From NCBI RefSeq assembly GCF_000013225.1, contig NC_007776.1, forward strand, positions 1,889,001 through 1,953,000: 64,000 bases of DNA, written 5' to 3'. This document shows positions 10,972-56,670 of this stretch, in pieces. A program made the translations under genes and the position numbers. The stretch's first letter is position 1. Every line of letters starts with the position of its first letter. The notes beneath the pieces are model-generated. The model had not been told where the DNA came from, ran no database searches, and saw nothing but the letters and a program-made list of their open reading frames with translations. This DNA is from Synechococcus sp. JA-2-3B'a(2-13) (GTDB taxonomy: Bacteria > Cyanobacteriota > Cyanobacteriia > Thermostichales > Thermostichaceae).

Positions 10972-11015
10972 ATTGACTACTCTCCACCCTACTGACTTGC
11001 TTCCGGCTAAGGGTA

Positions 11016-11050
11016 GGACGGGGCTTTAGGCGCATTTTTTTGGTAAAAAT
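11016..11050 (+). repeat. 35-bp dispersed repeat, copy 1 (upstream of thiE)
   Basis: It matches 34961-34995 at 31 of 35 positions, with shared core GGACGRGGCTTTAG and shared end TTTTTTGGTAAAAAT. It ends 30 bases before the thiE start codon. The GC-rich stretch followed by a T-run resembles the right end of IS200/IS605-type elements or their guide RNA, but it also looks like a terminator. See findings. Confidence 0.7.
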
Positions 11051-21672: not shown

Positions 21673-21824
21673 GGGTTGAGGAGCATTCCTCGGGCTCATT
21701 CAAAATGGATGTGGCTGTAACCTAGGGGCTCAGAGGGGCAAAGTGCTTCTCCCTTCGTTTGGGTTGCTGGAAAAGTTCGGCTAGAGTCAGATCAGTGACT
21801 GTGTCAACGTCTCGGCGGATCTCA

Positions 21825-24488
21825 ATGCTTTCTCCAGCTACTGCGCAAACTGATCTGAGTCCCATCGATCTGGATTGCCTGCTCACCCCTGAGATTCAGC
21901 GGCCAGCCCGCTACTTGGGCAAAGAGTTTGGCGCCGTCCACCGTCCTTGGGATTCGGCACGGGTGCGTTGGGTGCTGAGCTATCCAGAGCTGTACGAGGT
22001 GGGAGCTTCCAACCTAGGCCACCTCATCCTTTACAACATCCTCAACGCCCAGCCGGATCAACTGTGTGACCGCACCTACTTGCCAGGCCCGGATCTGGCG
22101 GCCCGCCTGCGGCAGTTGGGGATCCCGCTGTTTGCCGTGGAGTCCCGCCGCCCTCTGCGCGCTTTCCATATCATTGGCTTCAGCCTGGCTTACGAGCTGG
22201 GGGGCACCAACATCCTGGAGATGCTGGACCTGGCCGGGATCCCGCTCAAGTGGTGGGAGCGGCAGCCCTTTACCCCGGAAGAGTGCCCTCTGATCTTTGC
22301 CGGTGGGCCAACCGCCACCTCCAACCCAGAGCCTTTTGCCGACTTTTTCGATTTCTTCGTCTTCGGAGATGGGGAAGAGGTGCTGCCGGAAATTGGCCAA
22401 GTGCTGGCCGGATCCCTGTCCAAGCCCCGCCGAGAGGTCTTGCTGGAGCTGGCCCAGGTGCCGGGGGTGTACGTGCCCCAGTTTTACGAAGGGATCCCAC
22501 CGCGGCCCATCGTGCCTGGGGTGCCGGAGCGCATCCGCCGTCGGGTGGCCCTGCCTCAACCCCAATACTCCGTCGGCCTGGTGCCTTTGGTGGAAACCGT
22601 CCACGACCGCCTGGTGATGGAAGTGCGGCGGGGCTGCACACGGGGCTGCCGATTTTGCCAGCCGGGAATGCTTACCCGCCCAGCGCGGGATGTGGCTCCG
22701 GAAGCAGTGGTGGAGGCTGTGGTGCAGGGCTTGCGCAAGACCGGCTACAACGAATTTTCCCTCTCTTCTCTCAGTTGCTCCGACTACCTTTCCCTGCCGG
22801 CGGTGGGAGCGGAGCTGCACAACCGTCTCCTCAGAGAACACATTGCCCTTTCCCTGCCCAGCCAGCGGGTGGATCGTTTTGATGAGCAAATTGCCGCCAT
22901 CATGAAGGGATCCCGCCGCTCCGGCCTCACCTTTGCCCCCGAAGCTGGCACCCAAAGGCTGCGGGACATCATCAACAAGGGCCTCACCGATGCCGACTTG
23001 ATTCGCGGCATTCGCACCGCCGTCCAAGAGGGCTGGGACAAAATCAAGCTCTATTTCATGATTGGCCTGCCCGGCGAGACCGACGCCGATGTCCTGGGGA
23101 TCGCCCGCACCGTCGAGATGCTGCAGCGAGAATGTGCAGCCCTGGGTCGCAAGCGGGTGGAATTTACCCTCACCCTCTCCAACTTCACCCCCAAGCCACA
23201 CACCCCCTTCCAGTGGCACCGGGTAGACTATGCCGACGTGCAGCGGAAGCAGGCCCTGCTGCAGAAGGAGCTGCGGCGGCTGCGGGGCGTCAAAGCCCAC
23301 TTCACCGATATCCGCTTCAGCATCCTGGAAGACTTCATCGGCAAAGGGGATCGCTCCCTGGGACAGATGATCGAGCGGGCTTGGCGGGCCGGTGCCGGCA
23401 TGGATGCCTGGTGGGAAAGCATCGACACCGCCTATGCTGCCTGGGTGAGGGCCTACTGCGGCGAAGAGGTGGATCCTGCCGCCGATCCGGTCGCCCTCTG
23501 CGCCCATCTCCCCATCCGGGAATTGGGCCTGGAGGATCCCTTGCCCTGGGATCACATCGATACCGGCATCGACAAAAAATGGCTGCAAAAAGACTACCGC
23601 CGCGCCCTGGAAGCCCTCACCGTGGAAGACTGCTCCTTCGAGGGCTGCTCCGCCTGCGGCATCTGCGGCCCCGGCTTCGGCCACAACATCGTCATTCCCC
23701 CTCCGCCCGTCCCGCCCCTGCAGAGCAAACCCACCCCCACCCCGGATCCCCTGGAGCCGGAGCCACCTGCCCAGCGTTTCCGCATCACCTACGGCAAAAT
23801 CGGGGATCTGCGCTGGCTGGGCCACCTGGATCTCATGCGCCTGTGGGAACGGGCCTGTCGGCGAGCGGGGTTACCTCTGGCCTTCAGCGGCGGCTACCAC
23901 CCCATGCCCCGCCTGGCCAACGCCAACGCTCTGCCCATCGGCCAGGAAGGCTACGGCGAAATCCTGGATCTGGAGCTGCTGGATCGGCCTGAAGGTCCTC
24001 TGACGCCTGAGAAACTGCGCGCCCTTCTGAGCGAACAGCTGCCCCCGGAGATCCCCATCCAAGCGGTCCAAGAAATTAGCCTTCGGGATCCCTCGGCCAC
24101 CGCAGCCGTTTACGCCGCCGAATATCAGCTCACGGTGAGCTGCGAGTTGCCCAAAGCCGTTCACGGCAGCGGGACGGAGTCCTCTTGGCCTGCCTGGGTC
24201 ACCCAGATCCTAGACGCGCAGGAAATCTGGATTGAAAAAACCTCCAAGTCTGGCAAGTCCTCTCCCTTCAATGCCCGCGCCCTGCTTTACTACCTAGAGT
24301 TTCAGGGCCTGACCCCCGAGGGCAGCGCTTGCCTCCTTTACCGGGGCAGTTGCCGCAACGACGGTGCCTACCTGCGGCCCACCCATCTGGTTCAAATGGC
24401 CGAGTCATTGGGGTTGCCCCACTGGACACTACAGACGGCAAAGCGGCTGCGCCTGTTGTGGGAGAACCCCCTAGCCGATCCAGATTGA
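21825..24488 (+). CDS. radical SAM protein (TIGR03960-type) with C-terminal DUF2344
   Basis: Large cyanobacterial radical SAM protein. It has an N-terminal B12-binding-like region (about 60-230), a radical SAM core with the 4Fe-4S motif RRGCTRGCRFCQPG near residue 290, and GLPGETDADVLGIA in the barrel. A Cys-rich stretch (EGCSACGICGPG) around 620 is followed by a DUF2344 domain (RITYGKIGDLRWLGHLDLMR). The reaction is unknown; relatives are annotated as tRNA- or ribosome-modifying. The frame can start at a TTG at 21759, but the ATG at 21825 is preferred. The C-terminal part contains a copy of the SGTES repeat (24168-24182). Confidence 0.88.
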   Translation: MLSPATAQTDLSPIDLDCLLTPEIQRPARYLGKEFGAVHRPWDSARVRWVLSYPELYEVGASNLGHLILYNILNAQPDQLCDRTYLPGPDLAARLRQLGIPLFAVESRRPLRAFHIIGFSLAYELGGTNILEMLDLAGIPLKWWERQPFTPEECPLIFAGGPTATSNPEPFADFFDFFVFGDGEEVLPEIGQVLAGSLSKPRREVLLELAQVPGVYVPQFYEGIPPRPIVPGVPERIRRRVALPQPQYSVGLVPLVETVHDRLVMEVRRGCTRGCRFCQPGMLTRPARDVAPEAVVEAVVQGLRKTGYNEFSLSSLSCSDYLSLPAVGAELHNRLLREHIALSLPSQRVDRFDEQIAAIMKGSRRSGLTFAPEAGTQRLRDIINKGLTDADLIRGIRTAVQEGWDKIKLYFMIGLPGETDADVLGIARTVEMLQRECAALGRKRVEFTLTLSNFTPKPHTPFQWHRVDYADVQRKQALLQKELRRLRGVKAHFTDIRFSILEDFIGKGDRSLGQMIERAWRAGAGMDAWWESIDTAYAAWVRAYCGEEVDPAADPVALCAHLPIRELGLEDPLPWDHIDTGIDKKWLQKDYRRALEALTVEDCSFEGCSACGICGPGFGHNIVIPPPPVPPLQSKPTPTPDPLEPEPPAQRFRITYGKIGDLRWLGHLDLMRLWERACRRAGLPLAFSGGYHPMPRLANANALPIGQEGYGEILDLELLDRPEGPLTPEKLRALLSEQLPPEIPIQAVQEISLRDPSATAAVYAAEYQLTVSCELPKAVHGSGTESSWPAWVTQILDAQEIWIEKTSKSGKSSPFNARALLYYLEFQGLTPEGSACLLYRGSCRNDGAYLRPTHLVQMAESLGLPHWTLQTAKRLRLLWENPLADPD
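24168..24182 (+). repeat. SGTES repeat element, short copy inside the radical SAM gene
   Basis: The core AGCGGGACGGAGTCC is identical to the copies in rne, after hemE and in the inositol-phosphatase-like gene. It is read in frame as Ser-Gly-Thr-Glu-Ser. The upstream part of the element (TTCGCGCC) is not conserved here. Confidence 0.75.
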
Positions 24489-25254
24489 GCACTTCCTCTG
24501 GGAGCAACCCAAGGGCTAAGGGTCTGTCTGGGCTGAGGGATCCCACAAGCGCTATAATGCTGCTATTGCTGGCTCCTGCCGCTGTGGGGCTCGCCAAGCA
24601 TCAACTTGACCAAGGGCGGGGTGAGCAGCAGGCAAAAGCTGGGCCGGATTCTGGAATGGAGACACTCTTAACTCAGTACCCAGGGCAGGTAACAGGCGTG
24701 ATGGGGTCGAGTCGATAGGTGCAACAGAAAAGTGTGCCTCTTCGACCTAGCCCAGATCTAACCAGAAAATTTTACCCTGAGAAGGTGCTTCTTTCCGCGC
24801 GCAAACCCTGTCTTGTTGTGGACTATCGCTACGCGACGCTTTCGCGAACAGGCTGGGCCGCACAACTGGGGTTCTGCAATGGGCCAGCGTTCGATCTCCC
24901 GAGGCGGAGCCGTCTTGCTCCCTGAGCCTATCGATTGAGCCCATCCATGAATCTCCATGCAAACCTCACCGAATCCATTCATCCCATCCGATGAGTTTTC
25001 CTTCCAATCAGCAGAAGCCCCCCGCTGTACCCACCAGAGCCAGCATTGGGTAGTTCACATGCACTTAAACTCACCTCACCCATTGGAGAGGAAACAAAGC
25101 CAAGCGTCAAAGCAGAGCTGAGGGTAATGGACAGCCCCATGACGACTCGATCCTGGTTAAAGAAACTTGAGCAGATCCCAGCAAAAGGACAACACCTCGC
25201 CAGAACGAGGGTTCAATCCGTAACCGCGTGCCCTTGGGGCGGGGAGGGAAGTTA
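24489..25254 (+). other. long intergenic region / probable rne 5' leader
   Basis: A 766-base stretch with no supported reading frame. It contains several short inverted repeats, for example near 24820-24860, where CGCTACGCGACGC and TTCGCGAAC lie side by side. Long untranslated leaders that mediate feedback control by RNase E are known for rne in other bacteria, including cyanobacteria. Whether this leader does so is inference. Candidate promoters could not be placed reliably. Confidence 0.45.
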
Positions 25255-27426
25255 ATGCCCAGGCAGATTGTCATTGCCGAGCAACATCGCGTGGCAGCCG
25301 TCTTCGCCGAAGATCAAGTGCAAGAGCTGATCGTCGCCAGCGGCGCTCACCAAGTGGGAGACGTTTACGTCGGAATCATCGAGAACGTTCTGCCCAGCAT
25401 CGATGCCGCTTTCGTCAACATCGGCCCTGCAGAGCGCAATGGGTTTATCCACGTCAGCGACCTGGGCCCGCTGCGCCTCAAGCGAAGTCATGCCTCGATT
25501 TCTGAGCTGGTCTTGCCGCAGCAAAAGGTGCTGGTACAGGTGATGAAAGAGCCTACCGGCAACAAAGGGCCAAGGCTTACCGGAGATTTGGCCTTTCCAG
25601 GGCGGTATTTGGTGTTGCGACCCTACGGAAAAGGCGTTCATCTGTCCCGCCGCATCGAGGATCGAGAAGAACGCAACCGTTTGAAGTCGCTGGCCATTTT
25701 GATTAAACCCCCGCAGATGGGCCTGTTGGTGCGCACCGAAGCGGAAGGTGTGTCCGAAGAAGCGATGATCGACGACCTGGAGCAATTGAAGAAACTCTGG
25801 GAAGATATTCAACAGCAGTATCAGGCAGCACGGGGGCCGGGGCTACTCAACCGGGATGACGACTTTATTCAGCGGGTGCTGCGGGATGTTTACTCCGACG
25901 ATGTGAACCGTATTGTGACCGACTCTGCGGCAGGAGCGAAGCGAGTCCGTAGCTATCTGCAGGGCTGGAACAAGGGCCAAATGCCCCCCGGTGTCGTTGT
26001 CGATGCCCACCGCGAGCCCACCCCCATTCTGGAGTATTTTCGGGTCAACGCGGTCATTCGGCAGGCGCTGCGGCCACGGGTGGATCTGCCCTCTGGTGGC
26101 TACATCATCATCGAGCCCACCGAGGCCCTGACGGTAATTGATGTTAACTCGGGCTCCTTCACCCAATCGGCCACTTCTCGGGAGACAGTGCTGTGGACAA
26201 ACTGTGAGGCGGCTACCGAGATTGCCCGCCAATTGAGGCTGCGCAACATTGCCGGTGTGATTGTGGTGGACTTCATCGATATGGATTCCCGCCGCGACCA
26301 GTTGCTGGTTTTGGAGCATTTTAACAAGGCCCTCTCCAGCGATAAAGCTCGCCCACAGGTGGTCCAACTGTCGGAATTGGGGCTGGTGGAGCTCACCCGC
26401 AAACGGCAGGGGCAAAGCCTTTACGAGATCTTCGGCTATTCTTGCCCCACCTGTGAGGGGCTGGGGATCCTAGCCCGCTTGCCGGGGGCCGAGCCAGGGC
26501 ATCTGTTAACAATAGAAAGCGGCCTGACGGTAACGCTACCCACCGAGGCGGAAGGAGGGGATGAGGAAGAGGCCGGCCCGATCCTGCCCCGCGATGGCAA
26601 CCCCCAACGGGCACGCCTGCGAGTGGGGAGCGATGGGCTGTCTCGAGGCGATAGCCGTGCGCTGCTGCGGCGGTCGCGCTCTGCCCCCGGACAACGACGC
26701 CCCAGCCCGGATCCCTTTACGACTTCAGACGATCTGGAGGAAGAGCCACGGGTTGAAACGGGACGCAAGCGTCCCCGTGAAGACTGGGGGGATCCCCGCA
26801 CTGGCCAGCGCCTCGTTGCCCGGAGCCTGGATACTCCTGTAGAAGAGGAAGCCCCAGAGCCGATGCAACTGCCAGGGGGCGGAGCAGACCTAAAGCGTCA
26901 AGAACCCCGCCGTTCTGGCCCTGGGGAAGAGGCAGAATCCGCCTCACGCAAAGATCACACTTCCCCAGCCCGCACCGTTCGCGCCAGCGGGACGGAGTCC
27001 TCAGAAGGCCGTCCGGCTCCGGTACGGCAAACCGTCACCGTGGAGATGACCCCGTTACAACAACGGGTCTACTCGGAGTTGGGGCTGTCGCCGCTGTTGC
27101 TGCTTGACCAGCCGCCGCCTTGGGGCCGAGACACGGCGGTTAGGGTGGTTCTGCCGGGAACTCTCGAGGTGGAAAGTAGCCCAGAGGTGGAGACTGAGGC
27201 AACTTCTCAGGCGGAGGAGTTGGCGCCCGAACCGGATGCCTTGCAGGAGAAGGAGCCGCTGGATACCGTTTCTCCACCCGAACCCTCGGAACCCGAAATC
27301 TCCTCTGCTGAATCGTTCCCGTCAGCCGTGCAGAGCAGCTTGGCCGAGCCAGCGGCGGAACTGGGGATCAGCCCTGCCCAGCAATCTCCAGCAGCCTCCA
27401 GGCGACGGCGCTCCCGCAGCAGTTAG
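25255..27426 (+). CDS. rne: ribonuclease E/G
   Basis: Endonuclease that starts mRNA decay and processes rRNA. The 723-residue product has an S1 RNA-binding domain (about 30-120), a 5' sensor/RNase H-like region and a DNase I-like catalytic domain with acidic residues in IDVNSGSF and [13 protein letters not shown]. The zinc-link CPTCEGLG is near residue 400, and a long disordered tail of about 310 residues rich in Glu, Pro, Arg and Ser follows. The extreme C-terminus (RRRRSRSS) resembles the Arg-rich peptide by which cyanobacterial RNase E binds polynucleotide phosphorylase. The ATG at 25255 follows GGGAGGGAAG. The tail contains a full SGTES repeat. Confidence 0.95.
26974..27000 (+). repeat. 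SGTES repeat element, full copy inside rne
   Basis: About 27 bases ending AGCGGGACGGAGTCC and containing TTCGCGCC. It differs from the copy at 56521-56547 (opposite strand) at one position. Translated in frame it gives Thr-Val-Arg-Ala-Ser-Gly-Thr-Glu-Ser within the disordered RNase E tail. Confidence 0.8.
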
Positions 27427-28116: not shown

Positions 28117-28190
28117 CCCACGTAGCTCAGTGGACTAGAGCACTGGGTTCCGGTCCCAGGTGTCGGAGGTTCGAATCCTTTCGTGGGCGT
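28117..28190 (+). tRNA. tRNA-Arg (CCG)
   Basis: Acceptor GCCCACG/CGTGGGC, anticodon stem-loop CTGGG-TTCCGGT-CCCAG (anticodon CCG) and T-loop GTTCGAATC are all present; discriminator G. It is 74 nt with no encoded CCA, lying 13 bases after the rnhB stop and just before the tnpB element. Confidence 0.94.
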
Positions 28191-28204
28191 CTTCAGCTAG
28201 AAAT

Positions 28205-29465
28205 CGCAGGAGCCCCGCACTGTACCCGTAGGGTCAGTGTCGGGAGGAATGCGGAAGTTATGATAGAACCATGACCCAAGTCCTGACTGTAGCTTGCAAA
28301 CTCAAGGTGTCCCAGTCCCAGGCCGCAAAGTTGGATGCGACAATGGATGCCTTTGTGCAGGCGTTGAACTGGGTCAACCAAAACACACCAGAAAAAGTAG
28401 TCAACGCAGTCAAACTCCAATCCCTTTGCTATTACCAGATTCGCGCTCGGTTTGGCTTGTCCAGTAATCTGGCCCAGCAGGTCTGCAGACGGGTGGCAGG
28501 CGCTCGCAAAGTGGCGAGACAGCGCAACCGTCCAGTTAAAGAGTTCAAGCGTAGGTTCGTTACCTACGATGCACGTATCTTCTCGTTTCGCGAGAAAGAC
28601 TGGACAGTGTCGCTTGCCACGGTTGATGGAAGAGAACGCTTTGAGCCAGCCATTGGCAACTACCAGAGGGGAATGCTGGCTGGCTCTAACCCCAAATCGG
28701 CCACCCTAGTCCAGCGCAAAGACGGCTCCTACTCCATCCAGATTTGTGTCGAGGCAGAGCCCCCCAAGCAACAGAACACCGACAAGGTGATTGGTGTTGA
28801 CCTGGGACGGCGAGACATTGCACATACCTCCGAAGGAGACAACTGGAATGGACAGCAGCTGAACAAAGTCCGAGATCACTACTGTCGGTTAAGAGCGTCT
28901 CTTCAGCGCAAGGCCAGTAAGGGCACCCGCAGTTGCAGGCGGCGATGCCGTCAACTGCTGCAACGGCTGTCTGGTAAGGAGAGACGCTTTCAAGCTTGGG
29001 TGAACCACAGTATCGCTAAGCGCATCGTTAAAGCAGCAAAATCTCTTTCTGCCTGCATTGCCATTGAGGACTTAAGCGGCATTCGAGAACGCACCAATCA
29101 ACACCCCCGCAGTCGTGAGGAGCGGCGGCGTAGCAATAGCTGGGCGTTCTACCAGCTGCGGCGGTTTATCGAATACAAGGCTGTGAGGGCGGGTGTCAAA
29201 GTGGTAGCTGTCCCTGCGGCCTATACCTCGCAGATCTGCCACAAGTGCCTGCATATTCATCCCGACTCCGCTCAATCCTATCGCAAGGGTAAGCAGTTCA
29301 AATGCGGGCACTGCGGTTGGGAAGGGGATGCGGATTTTAACGGTGCGAAGGTGATTGCGCTTTTGGGGGCTGCCGTAAACCAGCCTAGAGGTTCGTGGTT
29401 GGCTTGCCAACTGCAGGGCTACCGAAAGCCCGCCCTGTACTGCGAAGCAGTCAGGGTCGGGTAGT
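28205..29465 (+). mobile_element. IS200/IS605-like element carrying only tnpB
   Basis: Boundaries are approximate. At the left, 28218-28239 folds as CACTG-(bulged T)-ACCC-loop GTA-GGGT-CAGTG. At the right, 29433-29456 folds as CCCTG-(bulged T)-ACTGC-loop GAA-GCAGT-CAGGG. Both hairpins have one bulged T at the same place and both are followed by TCGGG. Such subterminal imperfect hairpins are what Y1 transposases (TnpA) recognise. No tnpA lies in the window, so movement would need one in trans. The right hairpin overlaps the end of tnpB, where the guide (omega/re) RNA is expected. The element sits between tRNA-Arg and msrP. Confidence 0.75.
28271..29464 (+). CDS. tnpB: TnpB, RNA-guided transposon nuclease (OrfB)
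   Basis: A 397-residue TnpB with an apparently intact RuvC-like centre: first Asp in IGVDLGRRDIA, Glu in IAIEDLSGIRE and last Asp in the GDADFNGAKVI motif. A zinc ribbon with two Cys pairs (CHKC and CGHC) lies between the second and third catalytic motifs. The N-terminal part is the helical recognition domain with an OrfB-type start. TnpB proteins are ancestors of Cas12 and cut DNA guided by a transposon-end RNA, which maintains the element at its donor site. The stop lies one base from that of the convergent msrP. Whether it is active is not known. Confidence 0.93.
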   Translation: MTQVLTVACKLKVSQSQAAKLDATMDAFVQALNWVNQNTPEKVVNAVKLQSLCYYQIRARFGLSSNLAQQVCRRVAGARKVARQRNRPVKEFKRRFVTYDARIFSFREKDWTVSLATVDGRERFEPAIGNYQRGMLAGSNPKSATLVQRKDGSYSIQICVEAEPPKQQNTDKVIGVDLGRRDIAHTSEGDNWNGQQLNKVRDHYCRLRASLQRKASKGTRSCRRRCRQLLQRLSGKERRFQAWVNHSIAKRIVKAAKSLSACIAIEDLSGIRERTNQHPRSREERRRSNSWAFYQLRRFIEYKAVRAGVKVVAVPAAYTSQICHKCLHIHPDSAQSYRKGKQFKCGHCGWEGDADFNGAKVIALLGAAVNQPRGSWLACQLQGYRKPALYCEAVRVG

Positions 29466-30422
29466 TTACCCATATAAGTGGGCAACATACTCTCCGTACC
29501 CGTTGTAGGGCAAGGTGGGAACGATTTGCCACTGGGAACGGGATCCGAAACCGATCAAGACTTCCTGCTCCTGTGACCAGCGGGGGTGGGGCACCCTAGG
29601 ATCCACATTGGCCTCAAATCCATACTCCTCAGGGGCGAGGGTATTCCAAAACGTGGAGGGTTGACGGGCCAAAAACTCGATTTTGACGATGGATTTTCCC
29701 CCTTTAAAGCCATACTTCCAGGGAACCACCATGCGAATTGGCGCTCCGTGCTGTTTGGGCAACGGCTTGCCATAAACGCCGAGGGCAAAAAAGGCCAACT
29801 CGTTAGCCATTTCCTCGATCCGCAACCCTTCCGTGTAGGGCCAAGGCAAGTTGGGGGGCCAGATTGGGCCAGGCATAATTTCCGGATCGTAAAAGGAAGT
29901 GAAGCGGACAAATCGAGCCGTCGGCAAAGGATCCACCCGTTCCAGCAACAGCCGCATCGGAAAGCCCAACCACGGCACCACCATCGCCCAGGCTTCCACA
30001 CAGCGAAAGCGATAGATGCGCTCTTCGAGGGGGAAGTTAAACAGATCTTCCAGGCCCAACCGCTGAGGATGCCGCACCAGCCCGGTAATCTCGACAGTCC
30101 AGGGATCCGTGGGCAAAGCCTGTGCAGCCCGCCAGACGCGCTTGCCGGAGCCAAACTCGTAAAAGTTGTTGTAACGAGTAGCTACAATCTCCTCGGTGAC
30201 GGGCCTGCCCACATCCGAAAAGTGGGGGTTGAGTGGGATCCCCGTCAGCTCTCGTTCTACCGAGGGAGCGGATCCCCTGCTGCCAAACCCAAAAATAGAA
30301 AAACTGGCTCCCACCCCAACGGATCCCAGTTGCGCTAGAAATTGCCGCCGGCTGAAAAACATCTCTTCTGGAGTGACCTGTGCCTCTCGTTGCCAGGGGC
30401 GAGGAACTCGGATCCCGAACAT
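29466..30422 (-). CDS. msrP: MsrP (YedY), molybdenum-cofactor methionine sulfoxide reductase catalytic subunit
   Basis: Periplasmic repair enzyme for oxidised methionine. A twin-arginine signal (SRRQFLAQLGSVGVGAS) is near residue 26. The sulfite-oxidase-fold core shows FRCVEAWAMVVPW with the molybdenum-ligating Cys, DPEIMPG, LPWPYTEGLR, NELAFFALGVYGKPLPKQHGAPIR and PWKYGFKGGKSI. The product is 318 residues and ends in YVAHLYG. The stop codon lies at the border of the tnpB element, so the last residues may have been cut or replaced by the insertion. No msrQ (YedZ) partner lies next to it. Confidence 0.92.
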   Translation of the reverse strand: MFGIRVPRPWQREAQVTPEEMFFSRRQFLAQLGSVGVGASFSIFGFGSRGSAPSVERELTGIPLNPHFSDVGRPVTEEIVATRYNNFYEFGSGKRVWRAAQALPTDPWTVEITGLVRHPQRLGLEDLFNFPLEERIYRFRCVEAWAMVVPWLGFPMRLLLERVDPLPTARFVRFTSFYDPEIMPGPIWPPNLPWPYTEGLRIEEMANELAFFALGVYGKPLPKQHGAPIRMVVPWKYGFKGGKSIVKIEFLARQPSTFWNTLAPEEYGFEANVDPRVPHPRWSQEQEVLIGFGSRSQWQIVPTLPYNGYGEYVAHLYG

Positions 30423-34731: not shown

Positions 34732-35054
34732 GTACTGCTCCGGATCCCTGTACAGCTCTTCTTCCCAATTTTTGAATAAATCTTTACAACAACTCAGGGC
34801 TTTTCTGTCTCCCTCTGAGGGCAGTTTTCTCCAGTTGACCCACTCCTGCTGGGTTTTTGGAGTGGTTGACTACCCTGCCGTCGCCCTGAGTCTATCCCAA
34901 AGCCGTCCCCCATTGCTCCGCAACGCTGTTGCAACTGCGTCAGCGGGCCGTAGGCCTTGAGGACGAGGCTTTAGACCCAGTTTTTTGGTAAAAATGCCAA
35001 TTAAGAAGGGTATGATAAGGAGTGTTAAAAAATCTGATCTCTCCTCACCCAACC
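34732..35054 (+). other. intergenic region before the V4R operon
   Basis: It carries the second copy of the 35-bp repeat (34961-34995) and, 15 bases further on, a good -10 box TATGAT (35011-35016) that may drive the operon. The downstream GGAG at 35019-35022 is too far from the ATG to be its ribosome binding site. No reading frame is supported. Confidence 0.5.
34961..34995 (+). repeat. 35-bp dispersed repeat, copy 2 (upstream of the V4R operon)
   Basis: It has the same core and end as the copy at 11016-11050: GGACGAGGCTTTAG, then TTTTTTGGTAAAAAT. It ends 59 bases before the first V4R start codon, in the same orientation relative to the gene as the thiE copy. Confidence 0.7.
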
Positions 35055-37970: not shown

Positions 37971-38153
37971 ATTTCTACACTGGAGGTGGGACAGTCTGTT
38001 GCCATGGGCAACATGGGGCATGATGGATCCCGGATTTGCCCCGCTTATTCTGGGGGAAAAGAATGGCTTAACTCAAGTTGATCCGGGTCGTATCACTACT
38101 GATTTGGGAAGGCGCAGAACATCCAGATTCACTCATAGACTTACTTGGACTTA

Positions 38154-38269
38154 CAGTCATTTTAAACAGGTATGAAACATTTCCATCCAGCTCCCCTTTC
38201 TTTTTAGGAGATGGGGTGATGGCAGCGGCACAGAGCACTTGGGGGGCTTCTCAATTAGCTTAAAATGAC
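38154..38269. repeat. MITE-like element, copy A
   Basis: It is bounded by perfect 10-base inverted repeats, GTCATTTTAA (38154-38163) and TTAAAATGAC (38260-38269). The left side continues as ATGAAACATTTCCATC then AGCTCCCCT, and the right side contains GCAGCGG. A second copy with the same parts is at 47222-47328. It holds no reading frame, so any movement would need a transposase in trans. Confidence 0.7.
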
Positions 38270-47156: not shown

Positions 47157-47221
47157 ATGGGCGGTCATGAGCTACACCAATGCAGTAGCTCCGCTAGCGA
47201 GGTTGTGACGCAGCTTTTATA

Positions 47222-47328
47222 GTCGTTTTAAGCCGGAATGAAACATTTCCATCTAGCTCCCCTCTCTTGCTGGGGGTAGGGCGGCAGCGGAGAACGCTTA
47301 GGGAGTGTTTCAATCTAGTTTGAAATGG
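47222..47328. repeat. MITE-like element, copy B
   Basis: It begins GTCGTTTTAAGC and is followed by GGAATGAAACATTTCCATCTAGCTCCCCTCTC. After GGGGGTAGGG and GCGGCAGCGG it ends TAGTTTGAAATGG, an imperfect inverted repeat of the start. It shares the same left arm and central blocks as copy A at 38154-38269. It fills much of the 315-base gap 47157-47471, which holds no gene. Confidence 0.65.
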
Positions 47329-53359: not shown

Positions 53360-54460
53360 ATGTCCCACTCGCCTGTTCAGCTCAGCGCCACCTCCTCCAC
53401 CGCCAGCGGTGCGGAGCACTTGGGTGACCGTTTGCTGCGGGCGGCCCGAGGGGAAGTGCTGGATCGCCCTCCAGTTTGGATGATGCGCCAGGCGGGTCGC
53501 TACATGGCGGCCTACCGCGAGCTGCAAAGCAAGTACACCTTTAAGCAGCGTTGCGAGATCCCGGAGCTGGCCGTCGAGATCTCGTTGCAACCGTTTCGGG
53601 CCTTTGCCCCTGATGGAGTGATCCTGTTCAGCGATATCCTCACCCCCCTTGAGGGCATGGGCATCCCCTTTGAGCTGGTGGAGCATCAGGGGCCGATCAT
53701 CGACCCGCCGATTCGTTCGCAAGCCCAAATTGAACGCATCCGCCTCCTGGAACCGGAAGAAAGTCTGCCCTTTATCAAGACCATTCTCAGCACCCTGCGC
53801 CGCGAGGTGGAAGGGAAAGCAACGCTGCTGGGGTTTGTCGGCTCCCCCTGGACTCTGGCCTGCTATGCTGTGGAAGGGCGCAGCTCCAAAGATTACGCCC
53901 ACATCAAGAGCTTGGCCTTCGCGCAGCCGCCATTGCTGCATCAGTTGCTGAGCAAGCTGGCCGACAGCATTGCCCGCTACGTGATCTACCAGATCGAGGG
54001 CGGTGCCCAGGTGGTGCAGTTGTTCGATACTTGGGCCGGACAGCTCAGCCCAGTCGATTACGAGTGTTGGGCCTTGCCCTACCAAAAGCAAATTGTGGAT
54101 CAGGTGAAAGCTCGCTATCCGCAGGTGCCGCTGATCCTCTACATCAACGGCAGCGCCGCTTTGCTGGAGCGGGTGGGCAAAGCCGGCATCGACGTGTTCA
54201 GCCTCGATTGGATGAGCGACATGGCAGAGGCCAGGGCTCGCCTGGGATCCCTAGCGGTGCAGGGCAATCTGGATCCGATGGTGTTGCTGGGATCCCCGGA
54301 GTTCATCCGGCAGCGCACCCTAGAGGTGATTCGAAAAGCCGGATCCCGTGGGCATATCATGAACCTGGGCCACGGCATTCACCCAAGCACTCCAGAGGCC
54401 AATGTCCATTACTTTTTCGAGACGGTGCGCCAGTCGGCAGAGCTGATACATTTACGCTGA
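53360..54460 (+). CDS. hemE: uroporphyrinogen decarboxylase
   Basis: Decarboxylates uroporphyrinogen III to coproporphyrinogen III for heme and chlorophyll. Motifs: [20 protein letters not shown] at the N-terminus, [13 protein letters not shown] with the catalytic Asp, [25 protein letters not shown] and [15 protein letters not shown]. The product is 366 residues, slightly longer than usual because of a Ser/Thr/Ala-rich N-terminus. It is monocistronic. Confidence 0.96.
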
Positions 54461-54850
54461 ACACTGCTGAACATCACTGTTCAACTATGCAGCGATAGCA
54501 TTCTGTTTGTTTCCATTCGCGTTAGCGGGACGGAGTCCAAACAGAATGGCGGTATCCCGCAAAGCTTTGAGTAGAATACCCAAAGCGCAGTTTCCGTGTC
54601 GTCTTACTACCAATTTTCTGCTTTGCTTTGGCTACCATGTTGGCAGACTCGAAAGTAAACAGAAAGATCAACTGGTAGTAATCCGTAATGAACATATTAT
54701 ACATTATTTTCAGTATAGTTGAGCTTATTATTGACTAGAGTCATGCTCCTAAAAGCCCTCTAGCCTAACAGGCAGCGCGAACCCCTCCTCCCTGAAGCGT
54801 TTTGCTCAACTTTTGCTCTAAGGTTGCACGGCCATCTCCAGGGATCCCCG
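54461..54850 (+). repeat. intergenic region with a repeat-bearing inverted repeat after hemE
   Basis: The perfect 10-base inverted repeat ATTCTGTTTG (54501-54510) / CAAACAGAAT (54539-54548) encloses a copy of the SGTES repeat (54517-54539, TTCGCGTTAGCGGGACGGAGTCC). Further on, ACTACCAATTTT and AACTGGTAGTA form a second inverted pair (about 54607-54680). No reading frame is supported; the short frames here lack ribosome sites. Confidence 0.65.
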
Positions 54851-55834
54851 GTGTACATCAGCGTCATCATTCCCACCTACAACCGCCGTCCCATTTTGGA
54901 GCAGTGTCTGCGGGCCCTGGCGCAGCAGCAGCCCGGCCCCTACGAGGGCTACGAGGTGGTGGTGGTGGACGATGGCTCCACCGATGGCACAGTGGAATGG
55001 CTGCAGAACAACCCCGTTGGCTTGCCCCAGTGGAAACTGTTGCAGCAGGAGCACCGCGGCCCCGCCGCTGCCCGCAACCTGGGGTTTCGCCACGCCCAGG
55101 GATCCCTCATCGTCTTTATCGACAGCGACCTGGTGGTGGTGGATCACTTCTTGGCCAGCCACGCCCAGATGCTGCGGCGGCACGGCGTTACAGGGGATCC
55201 CCGCTCCCCCCACGAGGCCAAGGTCTTCACCTACGGGCGGGTGATCAACACGAGCAATTTTCAGGATCCCCGCTCCGAACCCTTCAAGCCCACCGATTTT
55301 TCGGCAGCCTTTTTCGCCACCGGCAACGTGGCCATTGCCCGCCATTGGTTGGAGCTGGCCTGCGAAACCCCCGCCGGCCCCTTTGACGAGCGGTTTCACC
55401 TCTACGGCTGGGAAGACCTGGAGCTGGGGGTGCGGCTAAAACGTTTGGGCCTGCGCCTGGTCAAGTGCCCCCAGGCCACCGGCTACCACTGGCATCCGCC
55501 CTTTGAGCTGCAGCAGATCCCAGGATTGATTGAGCGGGAACGGCAGCGGGGCCGCATGGGTATTCTCTTTTACCAAAAACACCCCACCTGGGCCGTGCGC
55601 CTGATGATCCAACTGACGCCCCTGCACCAATTCCTGTGGGGCCTTTTATCCCTGGGGGGCTGGCTGAACGAGAAGCGGGTGGAACCGCTGCTGCGCTGGT
55701 TGATCCGGCATGGCCGCTCGCAGTTGGCCTTGGAGCTGTGCCGGATTTTTTTCCTCAACTGGTACAACGTGCAGGCCGTTTACGAAAGCTACAGAGCGAT
55801 GAAGGCGCGAAATAAGGGGATCCACTCGGCTTGA
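54851..55834 (+). CDS. family 2 glycosyltransferase
   Basis: Membrane-associated GT-A sugar transferase. Motifs: VIIPTYNRRPILEQCL, VVDDGSTDGTVEWL (nucleotide-sugar Asp), FIDSDLVVVDHF (DxD-like), FHLYGWEDLELGVRL with the ED base. The ~328-residue product ends with a hydrophobic/basic C-terminus. GTG at 54851 follows AGGGA; a TTG at 54824 is an alternative. The last 46 bases overlap the convergent inositol-phosphatase-like gene. Substrate unknown. Confidence 0.87.
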   Translation: MYISVIIPTYNRRPILEQCLRALAQQQPGPYEGYEVVVVDDGSTDGTVEWLQNNPVGLPQWKLLQQEHRGPAAARNLGFRHAQGSLIVFIDSDLVVVDHFLASHAQMLRRHGVTGDPRSPHEAKVFTYGRVINTSNFQDPRSEPFKPTDFSAAFFATGNVAIARHWLELACETPAGPFDERFHLYGWEDLELGVRLKRLGLRLVKCPQATGYHWHPPFELQQIPGLIERERQRGRMGILFYQKHPTWAVRLMIQLTPLHQFLWGLLSLGGWLNEKRVEPLLRWLIRHGRSQLALELCRIFFLNWYNVQAVYESYRAMKARNKGIHSA

Positions 55835-56670
55835 GCTGCCACCAGGGCGGGGTAAGTGAGTCGGCCATAATCCTTGCCGGGAATGAGAGGCTGGCCGGGA
55901 TCCGGATCGGCACAGCTCAGGGGTTCCCAAACGGCGCCGGCCCCCTTGACAATGGCCCACACTGCCGCCACATCCCAGATCTTGGGCGAGCGTTCTACCG
56001 CCCCCAAAAGGCTGCCACCGGCCACCGCCAGCAGGTTGTAGGCAGCGCCCCCCAACATCCGCGCTTTGCAAGGGAATTGCGGGCTAATCCAATGGCTGCT
56101 GCGGGAACAGAAATTGAACAATTGGTTGGGGCCGGGTGAGGCGGTGCTAGGACGGATTGGCTGGGGACAGGCGGGATCCCGGTCGTGGCGGGTGAGAAAA
56201 GCTCCTGCTGCTGCATCCCCAGGAAACCGAGGCCAATAACCGTAAAAAGTCTGGCGGATGGGCGGCAGATGGACACAGCCAAACACCGGCACGCCCCAAT
56301 GCAGCAAAGCCAAGGAGCTGCCCCAAATGGGGATCCCACGGGCAAAATTGGTGGTGCCATCCAAAGGATCCACTACCCAACACCACTCCTTCTCGGGAAA
56401 AATGTGGTTGGATTCCTCGCTCAGATAACCGTGATCGGGGTAGGCAGCGGCAATGGCCCCTTGAAAAGCGCGATCCGCCCACTGGTCAGAAGAGGTTACC
56501 AAGCTGCCGTCGGCTTTTAAGGACTCCGTCCCGCTGGCGCGAACCGTAGGGTGGGCCTGGCCAAAGTCTGCCAAGAGCTGGGATCCCACGCTGGCCGTAG
56601 CCTGCAAGGCAAACTCGGTAACCTCCAGCCAGAAAGGGGATAGAGCAGCAGTTGCAGAAGGAGCACTCAT
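55789..56670 (-). CDS. inositol monophosphatase family protein
   Basis: Magnesium-dependent sugar-phosphate phosphatase. Motifs: LVTSSDQWADRAF near residue 60, EESNHIF, then WVVDPLDGTTNFARGIPIWGSSLAL (D-P-L-D-G-T) and KIWDVAAVWAIVKGAGAVWEPL. The length is 293. Residues from about 40 to 50 ([10 protein letters not shown]) come from the SGTES repeat, placed just before the KADGSLVT motif and lengthening a loop compared with family members (inference from memory). Its 3' end overlaps the glycosyltransferase by 46 bases. Confidence 0.9.
   Translation of the reverse strand: MSAPSATAALSPFWLEVTEFALQATASVGSQLLADFGQAHPTVRASGTESLKADGSLVTSSDQWADRAFQGAIAAAYPDHGYLSEESNHIFPEKEWCWVVDPLDGTTNFARGIPIWGSSLALLHWGVPVFGCVHLPPIRQTFYGYWPRFPGDAAAGAFLTRHDRDPACPQPIRPSTASPGPNQLFNFCSRSSHWISPQFPCKARMLGGAAYNLLAVAGGSLLGAVERSPKIWDVAAVWAIVKGAGAVWEPLSCADPDPGQPLIPGKDYGRLTYPALVAAQAEWIPLFRAFIAL
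56521..56547 (-). repeat. SGTES repeat element, full copy in the inositol-phosphatase-like gene
   Basis: On the minus strand it reads ACGGTTCGCGCCAGCGGGAC followed by GGAGTCC, one base different from the copy in rne. In frame it encodes Thr-Val-Arg-Ala-Ser-Gly-Thr-Glu-Ser, the same peptide as in RNase E. Confidence 0.8.

Follow-up and report, generated by a model that had tools for sequence, protein, structure and literature searches.

The closest described counterparts of the repeat analysed here are the small dispersed repeats (SDR1-SDR8) of Nostoc punctiforme and its relatives, which Elhai et al. 2008 reportedly characterised as 21-27 nt in length, high in copy number and subject to compensatory changes in their stems, and which are also said to nest in their own copies and in minitransposons. 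Since the Nostoc report it has been a standing question by what means such repeats, which at about 24 nt are far below the size of any coding sequence, could move, and a route through RNA was reportedly proposed for them. Rickettsia palindromic elements (RPE) are mobile, lie in-frame within protein genes, and measure about 100-150 bp. For one of the Nostoc repeats, SDR5, insertion occurs precisely between bases 3 and 4 of HIP1 (PMC4390886). REP and REPIN elements are found with RAYT (Y1) transposases (PMC3116915, PMC3733652), and untagged cyanobacterial repeats have been cited beside REPs (PMC3733652). Thermophilic Synechococcus carry MITEs derived from ISSoc2, according to the citation of Nelson et al. 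2012 given in PMC10969869.

The window under study was a stretch of 64,000 nt from Synechococcus sp. JA-2-3B'a(2-13) (NC_007776.1, positions 1,889,001 to 1,953,000). Its genome (G000, one contig of 3,046,682 bases) was compared with five genomes of the same genus (G001-G005), the closest of which, at about 92% identity, was G004, Synechococcus sp. M44_DOE_062. A first-pass annotation of the window had pointed to four copies of a 15-base core, AGCGGGACGGAGTCC, and proposed that they were small inserted elements tolerated inside proteins. Exactly four copies were recovered, at 24168-24182, 26986-27000 and 54524-54538 on the plus strand and 56521-56535 on the minus strand, the third starting at 54524 rather than at 54525 as annotated. 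By chance, 0.18 copies with up to two mismatches are expected in the window, and four or more copies were seen in 0 of 100 shuffles. The copies in rne and in the phosphatase gene did differ at one base in 27, as had been claimed, and were 91% identical across 34 bases; translation likewise bore out the peptide SGTES in three genes and the longer VRASGTES in rne and the phosphatase gene. The 24-nt elements of the window are collected in Table 1. The radical SAM protein also carries DUF2344, and the 24-nt insertion, read as ..HGSGTESS.., is located in that part, while the rne element sits downstream of the RNase_E_G domain and the phosphatase gene specifies an inositol-monophosphatase family protein.

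Table 1. The 24-nt elements of the window, and the larger repeat that hosts one of them.
Feature	Position	Strand	Context and state in relatives
24-nt element TCACGGCAGCGGGACGGAGTCCTC	24161..24184	+	In-frame in radical SAM gene (ORF 21759-24488); one mismatch in hairpin 1
24-nt element TCGCGCCAGCGGGACGGAGTCCTC	26979..27002	+	In-frame in C-terminal tail of RNase E/G gene, rne (ORF 25228-27426)
24-nt element TCGCGCCAGCGGGACGGAGTCCTT	56519..56542	-	In-frame in inositol-phosphatase family gene (ORF 55789-56670, minus), directly before KADGSLVT
24-nt element in MITE-like repeat after hemE	54517..54540	+	Sister copies of the repeat lack exactly 24 bp here
MITE-like repeat, ~306 bp, hosting one element	54443..54749	+	At least 12 copies, 98-99% identity, in G001
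Sibling element, stem TCGC/GCGA, loop GTA	24824..24847	-	Intergenic, radical SAM-rne; G004 lacks it, with a clean gap of 24 bp
Sibling element, stem TTGC/GCAA	34911..34934	-	Sequence only
Sibling element, stem GGCC/GGCC, loop GTA	34935..34958	+	Recognised by sequence

Three of the elements in Table 1 share the same two-hairpin build but have different stem sequences, and came from a search blind to the stem. No empty site was found, in the relatives compared, for the two siblings at 34911-34958, which are of two stem types and meet head to head with no base between them (24+24 bp); a terminator-like repeat (34960-34995, second copy at 11015-11050) adjoins the pair. An element-like stretch within hemE (53398-53421) was rejected as an insertion, relatives showing no 24-bp gap there. 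The MITE-like repeat has a second group of copies in G001, at 91-92% identity. Among other repeats of the window, an IS-like segment (28190-29470) recurs many times in G001, at about 70-95% identity, and is represented in G004 by shorter pieces only, and a pair of 65-nt repeats (38151-38215 and 47217-47281, 80% identical) is unrelated to the 24-nt element.

With up to one mismatch allowed, the core occurs 256 times in this genome (3.05 Mb), where a reversed control pattern was found once, and 36-233 times in the five congeners (71, 36, 62, 233 and 65 copies in G001 to G005, respectively); the other cyanobacteria searched held 0-3 per genome. An apparent desert of exact copies between 2.42 and 3.0 Mb of the chromosome was an artefact, and copies do occur there. 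The exact unit was met rarely in distant cyanobacteria, namely Geitlerinema sp. BBD 1991-9, Baaleninema simplex, a Gloeomargaritales genome and a Thermosynechococcus MAG. In the Geitlerinema strain, an identical unit of the GGAC form lies within a different, larger repeat, and its presence in so distant an organism may reflect horizontal transfer or deep age. The GGAC form was not found in collections of phages, plasmids and viral contigs, nor was an earlier report of this repeat in Synechococcus found by sequence and topic searches, which did not reach subscription papers. The octamer GGGATCCC, previously reported for Synechococcus JA-2-3B and JA-3-3Ab (PMC4390886), is abundant in this genome, at 13-34 per 20 kb.

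The elements are a two-hairpin family of precise mobile units, each adding a net 24 bp, and of this there can be hardly any doubt. Full and empty alleles were taken from syntenic stretches of relatives, together with an all-against-all comparison, which gave a clean empty site of exactly 24 bp for 37 elements and of 48 bp, corresponding to tandem pairs, for 6; many of the 37 derive from a single MITE present in several copies, and the non-redundant sites number 18. An orthologue spanning the site was available for 36 of this genome's own elements, and 16 of these proved to have an empty allele; the two states differed by a net 24 for 13 of the 16 elements, and in 73 of the 81 alignments. Where a gap measured 12, 16 or 18, the aligner had mostly split 24 as 16+8 or 18+6, and a few poor alignments, with gaps of 11, 15, 22 and 23, remain in the empty-site table. 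Insertions were located both within genes and between them, as well as in copies of MITEs and in IS elements, the flanks being identical at 60 of 60 positions in some cases, and were demonstrated for six stem types (GGAC, GTGC, TTGC, TCGC, GCGC and GGCC). Since the insertions into noncoding DNA and MITEs are also 24 bp, the length is not a product of selection for reading frame. Elements were also found inserted in their own copies, giving 48-bp dimers, and in MITEs. Elsewhere in the genome, a GGCC-stem unit, TCGCGGCAGCGGGCCGGAGGCCTT, forms a triple tandem array (G000:C1:370950-371021) and a double array at 512863.

No target duplication was seen in the empty-site alignments. The cut reads YR^A in most of the readable sites, its placement being ambiguous by at least one base in several. 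At copies ending in TT, the empty site has an A directly after the cut, where the full site mostly has a T; this change is not accounted for by insertion of 24 nt alone, and may represent a replaced base or homogenisation between copies.

Within the window, the radical SAM element is missing as a net 24 nt from the orthologue in G001 and is present as a mutated copy in G004. The phosphatase element is likewise missing as a net 24 nt from G001, is retained in G004, and is absent from G002, G003 and G005, these last alignments being looser. On such comparisons both copies are taken to be in-frame 24-bp insertions. The copy after hemE is a 24-bp insertion too, in its case into the MITE-like repeat around it. 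The rne element is also present in G004 and is degraded in G001, the region being unalignable in G002, G003 and G005. Orthologues lacking the element (G001, G002, G003 and G005) do not keep the peptide, and a peptide conserved for its function was rejected. With hundreds of copies, and clean in-frame insertions of 24 bp relative to relatives without them, the proposal that these are small elements tolerated inside proteins was upheld.

The edges of the unit are sharp, as seen in a weight matrix of 181 copies (CCGWTCGCGTYAGCGGGACGGAGTCCTT). Read as a single strand, it consists of two abutting hairpins, CGC(GNNA)GCG followed by GGAC(GGA)GTCC, and the general build is N-T-CGC(GNNA)GCG-NNNC(GNA)GNNN-N, a total of 24 nt. 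The stem-blind search, using the pattern TCGCGNNAGCG-NNNN-GNA-NNNN with the second stem left free, returned 196 elements from the genome stretches collected. The second stem was fully paired in 167 of the 196, with GGAC, GTGC, TTGC, TCGC, GGCC, GCGC, GAGC and GGGC types represented. Across 70 distinct 22-mers, 94.7% of the second-stem cells were paired compared with 79.8% after shuffling, and the covariation score was 0.384 compared with 0.111; either value was reached in 0 of 500 shuffles, and sliding the pairing partner abolished the signal. Judging by these stems, shape counts for more than sequence in defining the element. The first hairpin is invariant because it is part of the search pattern, and therefore provides no independent (covariation) support for itself. 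In 90% of the copies in the weight matrix a pyrimidine occupies position 3 of the first loop, and so this is not the stable RNA GNRA loop. Loops of the forms cGNNAg and cGNAg are unusually stable motifs in DNA, and both loops of the element fit them. Computed folding of single elements, whether as DNA or RNA, was not clearly stronger than that of shuffled sequences.

The use of one reading frame, which the first-pass annotation had put forward, stands as a preference but not as a rule. Sequence picked around copies, 551 kb in all, held 252 distinct sites, of which 107 were called coding by a codon model, and 47 of these used the SGTES frame compared with 28.6 expected (binomial p = 1.7e-4), the null being insertion at CYGA targets in genes and dependent on both the assumed target and the codon-based gene calls. 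All six frames occur, however, and what is constant is the length; 24 bp, or eight codons, leaves the reading frame open and adds eight residues. The element steadily supplies bacterial proteins with in-frame insertions of 8 residues. When 400 kb was sampled in stretches spaced evenly and kept apart from those sampled earlier, 9 of 32 elements were called coding, and the coding share usual for such genomes is well above this value. Elements therefore appear to be under-represented in coding DNA, and copies in genes are probably purged.

The explanation proposed for these observations as a whole, and considered on balance a probable one, is a 24-bp mobile family with two hairpins that is moved as a folded single strand and purged from genes. 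An enzyme supplied in trans would recognise the folded strand by its two loops and the TCGCG motif, with the variable second stem being ignored by this putative enzyme, and the 24-nt unit would be joined as DNA into YR^A sites, in the manner of HuH (Y1) transposases acting on single-stranded DNA with hairpin ends. Selection would then remove most of the copies in genes and retain more of those read as the hydrophilic peptide RVSGTESL. The element is best read as a parasite of a putative recombinase, with no known work for the cell. That the moving form is specifically single-stranded DNA is a reasonable possibility, held with some reserve.

Matches to the Y1_Tnp domain are present in all six genomes of the genus, numbering 2, 19, 4, 3, 4 and 9 in G000 to G005, and do not track the numbers of elements given above for the same genomes. 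The only uninterrupted match in this genome belongs to an intact IS605-type tnpA lying beside a divergent tnpB (G000:C1:544340-544702 and its neighbour). A Y1 (HuH) transposase is favoured by the hairpins, the absence of target duplication, the occurrence of Y1_Tnp in all six genomes and the intact IS605-type pair in this one, while the missing correlation with copy number and the lack of orientation domains may count against it. A lagging-strand bias is expected of Y1 transposition, and no orientation domains were detected along the chromosome (p~0.93), in a test of low power given poor synteny and an origin that was not placed.

Other routes could be envisaged. The elements could be copied during replication, a stalled strand copying 24 nt by way of short CCG/CCTT homology and then returning, or by gene conversion, with no dedicated enzyme. 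Such template switching is consistent with the CC(G) that precedes the unit and the CC that ends it, with the common occurrence of tandem 24-bp dimers, with the variable bases at -8 and +15/+16, and with the finding that no enzyme correlates with copy number. It would, however, require two exact switches, 24 bp apart each time, for six different stems, it leaves the compensatory pairing without a reason, and with a simple return at CC the flank on the right would come out wrong, so that it is judged unlikely. Spread by RNA, in which a hairpin RNA would be copied into DNA and then inserted, suits the compensatory stem changes as well as folded DNA does, and the Nostocales have repeats of similar build. 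Against this, the RVT_1 domain was not found in any of the six genomes of the genus by a search that was positive in control genomes, the first loop is GNYA rather than GNRA, and the RNA folding energy was not better than that of shuffled sequences. An RNA route is accordingly regarded as quite improbable, although it is possible that a reverse transcriptase came from an element since lost, or falls outside the RVT_1 model.

The remaining alternatives dispense with independent movement or with parasitism. Many copies do lie within MITE copies, and those of Geitlerinema within a larger repeat, as would be expected if the elements spread solely as passengers of MITEs or IS elements, but most of the 252 distinct sites have unrelated flanks and the empty sites are of 24 bp alone, even in MITE or IS copies that otherwise match. 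These empty sites already refute hitchhiking as the main route, and the chance that it explains the spread is negligible. A site useful to the host and kept by selection, be it a regulatory RNA, a protein binding site or a peptide module, would be in keeping with the highly conserved core and the preferred frame. Against it are polymorphism for presence and absence at orthologous sites, apparent under-representation in coding DNA, the use of all six frames and the degraded copies held by relatives, and it is considered highly improbable. A mobile element moved as a folded strand is the preferred reading. Because close relatives supply clean full and empty alleles, the length is exact, the target and the shape each follow a rule (that of the shape holding for several stem sequences), and the genus yielded no reverse transcriptase in the search, it becomes possible to put the RNA route and the DNA route to the test.

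Beyond this genus, one family is enriched in units of this design whose first loop is GNA, with 15-96 copies per genome in 6 of its 7 sampled members, compared with 0 for the control. Among the Nostocales units sampled, 18 of 22 were fully paired, with loops GTA, GAA, GCA and GGA, and the plasmid records with a typical unit were all from Nostocales (Nostoc 16, Trichormus 6, Anabaena 2, Tolypothrix 2 and Microchaete 1). These two-hairpin units, set beside SDR by description, probably correspond to the repeats that Elhai et al. 2008 named SDR. A bolder proposal, which is advanced tentatively and is rather unlikely to hold in full, is that a single enzyme recognises a pair of adjoining DNA mini-hairpins by their GNNA and GNA loops, whatever the sequence of the second stem, and places a single strand of 24 nt into YR^A, and that the same shape-based system of DNA, not RNA, underlies the Nostoc SDR and spans the cyanobacteria. 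If true, this would be among the smallest mobile DNAs known.

The likeness to Rickettsia palindromic elements that had been suggested holds as a functional analogy, since the 24-nt repeat is also tolerated in-frame inside protein genes. It does not extend further, the element being several times shorter, of another structure and from another host, and by description it stands apart from RPE and nearer to the small dispersed repeats of Nostoc. In common with REP and REPIN elements it is a short palindromic unit that would be moved in trans, but the weight matrix contains no GTAG/CGTC tag, the unit consists of two tandem mini-hairpins rather than one palindrome, it occurs inside genes, and the intact Y1_Tnp of this genome is of the IS605 type beside tnpB. 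Precise insertion next to a short target without target duplication is shared with IS200/IS605 (Y1) elements. The MITEs of Synechococcus occur in the same organisms, and one window copy lies inside a MITE-like repeat; the 24-bp element itself, however, is without long terminal inverted repeats or target duplication.

The correspondence with SDR is the most extensive. At 24 nt the element falls in the 21-27 nt class, one stem type alone has 256 copies, compensatory changes occur in the second helix (the first being invariant), and the element nests in itself as 48-bp dimers and in MITEs and inserts precisely. Nostocales genomes, the hosts of SDR, share the two-hairpin build, the comparison being one of build. 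The differences are that the host here is a thermophilic lineage outside the Nostocales, that the first loop is mostly GNNA rather than the GNA of Nostocales units, that the target is YR^A in varied contexts rather than the HIP1 used by SDR5 (the genome having GGGATCCC instead), and that the element is frequently in-frame in genes, in a genus where no reverse transcriptase was found. What this analysis adds is the exact length of the unit, its target, a shape rule under which stems are interchangeable, its presence in a lineage other than the Nostocales, and a connection with the repeats of that order.
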